Source of the DNA: Bacteroidetes bacterium GWF2_41_31
Lineage (GTDB): Bacteria; Bacteroidota; Bacteroidia; Bacteroidales; F082
Length of the DNA: 64,000 nucleotides
Reading direction: 5' to 3'
Assembly: GCA_001769215.1 (NCBI GenBank)
Contig: MEOL01000026.1
Coordinates: forward strand, 1-64,000
Shown here one piece after another: positions 10,002 to 11,431 of the stretch. The position numbers were made by a program, and so were the translations under genes. The notes beneath the pieces are model-generated. The model had not been told where the DNA came from and made no database searches. It saw only the letters and a list, made by a program, of their open reading frames with translations. Position 1 is the first letter of the stretch. Each line of letters opens with the position of its first letter.

Positions 10002-10485
10002 CCCTAACTCATCCTCGTTTGAGCATAGCGATAACGAGCTTGCCTACCTTCATGCCTACGACAGATAAATCGGTAGGTAAATCTGCCGCCCTTTAGGCAG
10101 GGATGCCTACCACTAACTCATCGCAGTTTGAGTTGCGGTAACAAGCATGCGACAGGCGCGCACGAACAACTCTTTTCCCAGGTTATACTTGCCTTGCCGG
10201 CCGCGTTTCACGGCGGAAAGGTTTTAGAAGCGGAATCAATCTCCATAACTCAACAACGCCCAAAAATAAATCACCAAAAGATTGACCCTAAAAATCAAAC
10301 CAATACAATTAATTCCTAGATTTACCCCACCAAACACCCGATGATCCAATTACAATGAAGTAGAAAGAAACCGATTTGATTCATTATAAACGATTGAAAA
10401 TGGGCAGGTTATTAATTATAAAGAGGTTAAAAAAAAGGGTAATAGATAAATAACTGCTAGAGGTGAGTTTATCCACTCGTTAGGT
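10002..10485 (+). repeat. Family B junction repeat, copy B2, with inserted TACC/GGTA palindromic segment; ends in GTTAGGT
   Basis: Second family B copy; left end partly duplicated (10002 and 10113); right end 'CTGCTAGAGGTGAGTTTATCCACTCGTTAGGTGC'. Confidence 0.8.
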
Positions 10486-10510
10486 GCAATAAAAAATAAA
10501 AATAAAAACA

Positions 10511-11296
10511 ATGGATACAACATTTCCAAGAATTTTTGTAGGCTCATCATCAGAAGACCTTGATGTAGCATACGCAATACAAGACAACCTTGAAAAAGTT
10601 GCTGATGTGACTGTATGGGATCAGGACATTTTCCAACTTACAGAGACTACATTGACTAGTCTTATTACTGCAATAAACCAATTTGACTACGCAATATTTG
10701 TTTTTAATTCAAATGATGAAATAATAATACGTGGGGAAAATTTTCAAATAGCTCGAGATAATATCATTTTTGAGATGGGATTATTTATTGGAAAAATGGG
10801 AAAGGAAAAGGTGTTTTATGTCATGCCACATGGAATAAGCAACTTTCATTTGCCTACAGATTTAATTGGGACAACAGCTGGGAAATATAGGACTGACAGA
10901 CAAGATGGAAATATAAAAGCCGCACTTGGAGTATTTTGTAATAGCATTAGGAAAATAATTAATTCGAAATACATTAAAGAAGAGGAAACTATTACTCCTG
11001 AGAAAATATTTGTTGGTAAATGGAATAATTTCTATGTGGATAATACTGATGGGAAAAGATCATTTGGCACTGAAGAAGTCATTATAAAAAACAAAAATGA
11101 ATATTATGTAAATAATATTTTATATTTTAAAATTAAAGACTTCAAAATTGATAGAAAACACGGAAAAATTTCATTTATTAAAGTAGGTGTATTAGATGAC
11201 AGAATACTTAGAAATGAACTTAAAATAATATCCGGTAAGTTGTTCGTTGGAACAGAGAATGAGAATACTGAAGTAAATTATGAAAGAATAAATTAA
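10511..11296 (+). CDS. TIR domain-containing predicted nucleotide-binding protein (Cap12/PycTIR type, PF10137-like) with unknown C-terminal domain
   Basis: 'PRIFVGSSSEDLDVAYAIQDNLE...VTVWDQDIFQLTETTLTSLITAINQFDYAIFVF...RDNIIFEMGLFIGKMGKEKVFYVMP...LPTDLIGTTAGKY'. Confidence 0.85.
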   Translation: MDTTFPRIFVGSSSEDLDVAYAIQDNLEKVADVTVWDQDIFQLTETTLTSLITAINQFDYAIFVFNSNDEIIIRGENFQIARDNIIFEMGLFIGKMGKEKVFYVMPHGISNFHLPTDLIGTTAGKYRTDRQDGNIKAALGVFCNSIRKIINSKYIKEEETITPEKIFVGKWNNFYVDNTDGKRSFGTEEVIIKNKNEYYVNNILYFKIKDFKIDRKHGKISFIKVGVLDDRILRNELKIISGKLFVGTENENTEVNYERIN

Positions 11297-11297
11297 A

Positions 11298-11431
11298 GCA
11301 CCTAACAATGCATAATACTTTATGGCGGGTTACGTTATGAAAATGAGTATTTTAGTTTCAAATATAAATCATCGTGGACAGAAAGATTTGTTTTTTAAAT
11401 CCGACATAAAGCATAAGCTCGCCCGTTAGAC
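11298..11431 (+). other. attC-like recombination-site candidate S2 (family A)
   Basis: R''-like ACCTAAC (11300-11306) and R'-like GTTAGAC (11425-11431); ATAATACTTTATGGCGGGTT on the left pairs imperfectly with AATCCGACATAAAGCATAA on the right. Confidence 0.6.

Follow-up and report, generated by a model that had tools for sequence, protein, structure and literature searches.

Chromosomal integrons run by canonical integron integrases (VchIntIA/IntI4 and IntI1; model TIGR02249) hold tandem arrays of one- or few-gene cassettes with complementary cores, GTTRRRY and RYYYAAC; their attC sites are imperfect palindromes and attI lies beside the integrase gene. GTTRRRY is the R' core at the cassette start, and RYYYAAC is the R'' core at the start of the attC behind the gene (PMC3053210). 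The I2 helix, which docks the extrahelical bases of attC, has been held exclusive to integron integrases, and I2 together with single-strand recombination has been held unique to them, with no known intermediates (PMC7790495). In Bacteroidetes an earlier survey recorded lone integrases only, and IntegronFinder 2.0 then reported one complete integron, in Salinibacter; in Firmicutes it reported one, in Limnochorda (PMC9024848). Here we analyze a 64,000-nt stretch of contig MEOL01000026.1 (the window), from a Bacteroidales-like draft genome (52 contigs, 4.5 Mb, 97.6% complete), in which a gene for a TIR-domain protein is flanked by 9-bp complementary ends. This gene is a cassette of an integron-type system, flanked by R' and R'' core sites. 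We place at about 0.8 the probability that it is a chromosomal integron-type cassette whose likeliest enzyme is the C39 recombinase, an attI-adjacent integrase without the I2 helix (I2-less) that works on mostly bulge-free hairpin attC sites.

With canonical integrons the system shares tandem arrays of one- or few-gene cassettes, complementary cores, imperfectly palindromic attC sites and an attI beside the integrase gene. It differs in that the I2-less integrase is without a ∼41-aa segment, that its gene is oriented the same way as the array, that the C39 group has an additional N-terminal part of ∼400 aa, and that eight loci have bulge-poor attC sites with fixed G.T/A.C positions. Like the clusters of attC sites lacking integron integrases (CALIN) recognized by IntegronFinder, the window is an attC array with no integrase nearby, one of many arrays scattered over many contigs in a genome with dozens of attC and attI-like elements; unlike them, an array-proximal integrase is present in the genome. 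The attI-like copies that stand ahead of cassettes far from the integrase (the B2 ends of repeat family B, below) recall delta-attI-type cassettes (PMC12901181), from which they differ in being many, dispersed and longer. An integron-like tyrosine recombinase subgroup has also been described, whose insertion-less members are not linked to attC arrays or attI in the accessible part of that paper (PMC8138268). Our literature search, outside which lay preprints and most subscription journals, found nothing linking insertion-less enzymes to attC arrays. What is new is the I2-less integron lineage in Bacteroidia; complementary cassette ends themselves are a known integron property.

The TIR gene is bounded by GTTAGGTGC on its left and GCACCTAAC on its right (Table 1), exact reverse complements of each other, as an earlier note made from the sequence alone had claimed, and the right 9-mer begins two bases beyond the last base of the stop codon. 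In the 64-kb window GTTAGGTGC occurs at just these two sites, one per strand, where 0.35 are expected. Also as described there, the left 9-mer adjoins the right end of a family B repeat and the right 9-mer opens a family A repeat; the bases after other B copies and before other A copies differ, so the match is a property of the gene unit. Since GTTAGGT and ACCTAAC fit GTTRRRY and RYYYAAC, we read them as the R' and R'' cores of an integron cassette, with crossover probably between 10479 and 10480 (G^TT). The attC behind the gene is an imperfect palindrome with paired L arms; its right arm reads ...GCTCGCCC and it ends in the R' core of the next cassette, GTTAGAC (11425-11431). A lone 9-mer pair at such spacing is not rare: in the 21.7-kb array region we saw 3 exact pairs of a GTTR 9-mer and its complement 300-2000 bp apart, with 2.1 expected. 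The weight lies instead in a genome-wide rule and in the placement of the pair on two repeat boundaries, which for a fixed pair would arise by chance at ∼4^-9 (4^-6 with GTT/AAC taken as given).

This rule, that the start and end of one and the same cassette are complementary over 7-10 nt, recurs in the arrays of this genome, in its relatives and in canonical integron controls. In integrons the pairing partner of a cassette start is the R'' in the attC of that cassette rather than the R'' immediately upstream. With anchors inside family A only, 13 pairs were testable: own ends match at least 5 of the 7 bases after GTT in 8 of these 13 family-A-bounded cassettes, and the mean match after GTT is 3.9/7 for own ends, compared with 1.7 for permuted partners (500 permutations, highest 2.85) and 1.2 within the same site. 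Matches of 10/10 occur in C51 (GTTATGCTGC/GCAGCATAAC) and C3 (GTTGTGCCCC/GGGGCACAAC), and cassettes that start behind family B ends match at 7/7 in 8 of 27 cases, with zero in shuffles. The same script gives the same cassette chains in genomes with canonical IntI elsewhere in the phylum (L286, L290-L292, L298, L299, L301). Because these canonical controls show the same complementary ends, the ends are a general integron property and are not TIR-specific. The inserted circular cassette proposed in the earlier note thus gains support from the R'/R'' cores and the array-wide rule; the note had left the system unnamed, and the ends do not belong to the TIR gene in particular.

The same behavior is seen at the closest homologue of the TIR gene that we found (L279, 43% identity), which belongs to another genus of the order and is also a cassette, with different neighbours. 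It is preceded by GTTGGGTG and followed by CACCCAAC and then an attC-like palindrome, the two ends being mutually complementary 8-mers. The expectation that the 9-mers travel with the gene therefore held for the complementarity of the ends and failed for the exact 9-mer, which has changed; between the two TIR loci the end pair covaries, as the integron model would expect. Complementary pairs at two further TIR homologues (L282 and L284) were judged to be chance. No TIR homologue above 43% identity was found among 393 genomes of the order, and no close one in viral contigs. The nearest solved structures to the TIR protein are Cap12 and PycTIR; the protein falls well below the equivalog for Cap12 of CBASS, a TIR-STING NAD hydrolase (NF050172, 117 bits against a cut-off of 450), the match being limited to the TIR part, and the gene is probably a phage-defence gene.

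Contig C39 (L111) holds the only complete integron of the genome, with recombinase, conserved attI and cassettes; it appears to be run by an integrase without I2, the helix that this reaction is believed to need. The 683-aa tyrosine recombinase is encoded at 8693-10744, and cassettes start 300 bp on, on the same strand: those at 11045/11607, 11734/12409, 12536/13282, 13407/14873 and 15000/15669 all have exact 9-mer ends, and two end in family A sites, the same family as in the window arrays. An attI model from four relatives only (L178-L181) matches C39 at 10965-11047 (E=2e-14), ending at the GTT of the first cassette; it also matches the end of one family B2 element (E=8e-8) and, less strongly, other B2 elements. 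This attI is conserved beside the recombinase in several genera. The alignment of Natronoflexus with Alkalitalea is close as far as ...GATAAAAAGAC and the following G; beyond it, from the TT on, the two share 29% identity, as expected if different cassettes had been inserted at G^TT. The C39 integrase scores 203.6 bits against TIGR02249, below the cut-off of 265, which no recombinase in this genome reaches (no canonical IntI); a canonical IntI match is likewise absent in 18 of the 19 checked relative genomes carrying a C39-type integrase, most of which have arrays at the locus and a few of which contribute full-length orthologs at contig ends. The ∼400 extra N-terminal residues comprise W..P-type domains together with a second recombinase half that is SAM-like and apparently degenerate, and are conserved in full-length orthologs. 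A second recombinase of this genome (L112, 578 aa, G000:C46:14511-16247, minus strand) has a similar N-terminal DUF5710-like domain and no full IntI match.

Arrays follow related recombinases elsewhere. Behind the Natronoflexus pectinivorans ortholog (G143, L183; 45-46% identity) come five consecutive exact-9-mer cassettes with gaps of 116-117 nt. In a scan of the recombinase family in named genomes (80 loci), chains of at least three exact 9-mer cassettes were found at 15 of the 80 loci and in 0 of 400 shuffles, with mostly near-constant attC length. With exact 8-mers, chains of at least three were found at 17 loci, the first cassette starting 35-153 bp past the integrase stop in 12 of them; the raw k=8 scan is noisy (203 chance chains in 480 shuffles), and the evidence is restricted to chains of at least three. 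The array-bearing loci include Flavobacteriales, Cesiribacter, Pontibacter, Rufibacter, Adhaeribacter, Cohnella (Bacillota) and a Spirochaete. Homologues of the gut Bacteroides, Phocaeicola and Prevotella type form one branch (L194, L197, L207, L210, L212-L214, L218, L221, L256), in which no arrays were found at the loci with enough downstream sequence. At 39 of 78 I2-less integrase loci (L178-L257), less than 3 kb of contig remains past the gene, as would be expected if repetitive arrays break assembly.

The C39 recombinase and its array-linked relatives are without the IntI-specific segment of ∼41 aa in the catalytic core that contains the I2 helix: the spacing from KGxKDR to RHSFATHL is 77-78 residues in all array-adjacent enzymes, compared with 119 in canonical enzymes of the phylum. 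Against VchIntIA/IntI4 (2a3v) the alignment falls into two blocks, with IntI4 residues 186-243 replaced by 16 aa, and archaeal XerA aligns with an I2-less enzyme without a large gap. The AlphaFold model of a Flavobacteriales enzyme (predicted local distance difference test score, pLDDT, 84.6) has no extra helix at that place, where no more than a short stretch separates helices 271-284 and 301-314; by fold it is still closest to 2a3v, and IntI4 is the best match in the PDB by sequence too. The full-length model of a C39-type integrase was poor (pLDDT 66) and was not used. In a tree built without the insert columns, with a small Xer outgroup from one phylum, IntI and the I2-less enzymes stand apart from XerC/D (100/100) and IntI is one clade (100/100). 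The tree does not separate a grade of I2-less enzymes below IntI from a sister clade (approximately unbiased test, p=0.425); in a wider tree, array-bearing members sit in several branches around IntI.

The attC sites differ as well. Canonical arms bulge by one base at each of two or three fixed positions, amounting to 1.8-3.3 nt per site in the left arm (seven loci), whereas the left arms of eight I2-less loci (L111, L183, L195, L199, L211, L215, L217, L222) mostly match without bulges, at 0-0.9 nt per site. These eight loci have 1.5-2.3 fixed A/C arm positions per site, a mismatch on the top strand and a G.T wobble on the bottom strand; such bottom-strand wobbles number 0-0.3 in canonical loci, and the reverse arrangement, with top-strand wobbles, is nearly absent in the eight (0-0.5). 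The wobbles lie on the other strand at a further I2-less locus, L226, where the array is upstream of the integrase. The predicted fold is more stable for the bottom strand at 63 of 70 sites from I2-less loci and at 26 of 40 from canonical loci, which bears only indirectly on recombination of a single folded bottom strand.

These features suggest how the TIR cassette may have moved. The mobile unit would be one gene plus its attC, and in the circle the attC would run R''-arm-loop-arm-R', with R'' and R' pairing when the strand folds. Since start and end would be adjacent in the circle's own attC, they would pair with each other; insertion at G^TT would put the R' half at the left end of the integrated cassette, and the ends would stay exact complements. 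The site of insertion would be either the attI next to the integrase gene or an attI-like or attC site elsewhere. The C39 recombinase, related to IntI, would act in trans on the window array and probably recognizes a hairpin attC mostly free of extrahelical bases, with the bottom-strand G.T wobbles setting the choice of strand.

We weighed this reading against three others. In the most serious of them, which we consider unlikely, these are ordinary cassettes whose mover is a canonical IntI that the draft lacks or that acts from elsewhere, the I2-less recombinase being a bystander. The genome is indeed a draft (97.6% complete, 52 contigs), 84 of the 297 genomes sampled across the phylum carry canonical IntI, and integrase-less attC clusters are common (PMC8618304, PMC9668308); yet canonical IntI is rare in this class and absent in 18 of the 19 checked genomes, the recombinase adjoins a conserved attI in several genera, and the attC arms at the eight I2-less loci are unlike the canonical type. 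A view of the TIR unit as a transposon-like element bounded by 9-bp terminal inverted repeats fits one gene flanked by inverted repeats, but is very improbable: the unit has no transposase, its boundaries lie at GTTRRRY and RYYYAAC inside attC-like palindromes, its ends vary by cassette yet stay complementary, unlike transposon ends, and there are neither target-site duplications outside the 9-mers nor identical ends on unrelated cassettes. Coincidental complementarity of the repeat edges deserves as little credence, although chance alone should give about two such pairs within the 21.7-kb array region, because this pair falls exactly on two repeat boundaries, the nearest TIR homologue found has a complementary pair of its own, and the array-wide rule, to which the neighbouring cassettes and dozens of others conform, refutes it.

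Several observations count against the C39 recombinase and its hairpin sites as the explanation of the TIR cassette. C39 and the window are on different contigs, so any action on the cassette would be in trans; neither recombination nor a circle nor an alternative junction has been seen, and the genome is a draft in 52 contigs. The family B end ahead of the TIR cassette, type B1, is not recognisably attI-like, and 22 I2-less homologue loci lack an array although the downstream sequence leaves room for one. Other I2-less loci (Psychroserpens, Cohnella, a Spirochaete, Pontibacter, Rufibacter) have arm bulges of 1.5-2.6 nt, so the link between loss of I2 and loss of bulges is lineage-specific. 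Among the genome's own family A sites, the left arm carries a single extra base in ∼11 of 25, and the minimum-energy fold prefers the bottom strand in just 16 of 26. The evidence is thus suggestive of a link between the absence of I2 and bulge-poor attC, one that is not universal.

The window contains two convergent arrays, one on the plus strand and one, of family C, on the minus strand at 20760-27849 (Table 1), and they meet near a strong hairpin, CTAATAAATAGGA..TCCTATTTATTAG. Families A and B gave 49 and 43 query matches in the genome; the B copies are dispersed, most of their right ends adjoin a cassette start, and their other end type, B2, is attI-like. An Rfam search of families A to C in the window matched zero families. 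Among the neighbouring genes, the SoFic-type gene at 6387-7457 matches the PADLOC SoFic model (391 bits) and the Fic/Bro-N protein is the PADLOC candidate PDC-S04 (537 bits); with these two Fic-type cassettes the array looks rich in defence-like genes. Just ahead of the SoFic cassette lies an IS66-type insertion (∼3683-6330; open reading frames 3750-6179) with inverted ends GTAAACCTTCGGCCTCCT / AGGAGGCCGAAGTATTAC. The Rfam DUF805b RNA motif (RF02914) occurs at 26523-26555 (minus strand), upstream of a small CxxC-repeat protein.

Table 1. Cassettes, core sites and repeat elements in the window.
Feature	Position	Strand	Details
TIR-domain protein, 261 aa	10511-11296	+	PF10137 CAP12/Pycsar TIR, E=2.5e-28
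TIR cassette left end	10479-10487	+	R' core GTTAGGT (10479-10485) plus GC; GTTRRRY rule (PMC3053210)
TIR gene unit right end	11298-11306	+	R'' core ACCTAAC (11300-11306); exact complement of 10479-10487
TIR cassette attC, family A	11300-11431	+	R'' 11300-11306, left arm ∼11307-11327, right arm ∼11401-11424
Family B element, end B1	10003-10478	+	directly upstream of TIR cassette; ends ...GAGTTTATCCACTC before GTT
LRR/Recep_L cassette	11425-13328	+	protein 11469-13106; start GTTAGACATAATGC, end GCACTATGCCTAAC at 13108-13121, 12/14 complementary
Fic/Bro-N cassette	13328-14593	+	protein 13424-14305; start GTTGGCGGT, end ACCGCCAAC at 14340-14348, 9/9 complementary
Family A attC after SoFic gene	7470-7544	+	gene 6387-7457; R'' degenerate; next R' GTTGCAG at 7538
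Family B element, end B2	8138-8530	+	ends ...GGCTGTATGCGGAT before GTT; then CsgG-like cassette, start GTTATGGGC at 8530
Family B element, end B1	18778-19150	+	then GTTGACATTC at 19148
Four family C elements	21421-21764, 23758-24088, 25735-26180, 27545-27849	-	common B1-like right end ...GAGGTGAGTTTAT

The I2-less array-bearing integrases may bear on how integrons arose. It is possible, though we hold it only tentatively and think it doubtful on balance, that they keep a pre-I2 state, in which cassette capture with bulge-free hairpin attC sites and G.T wobbles came first, canonical IntI later branching off from within the group on gaining both I2 and extrahelical bases. The occurrence of an I2-less lineage at attI, with intact arrays, in many Bacteroidota and in a few other phyla means that the origin of cassette capture can be put to the test. 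Tools that require an IntI-specific domain (PMC9668308) would be expected to miss an array-proximal I2-less integrase, and a large cassette pool, including defence-like TIR and Fic genes, has likely been overlooked by them.
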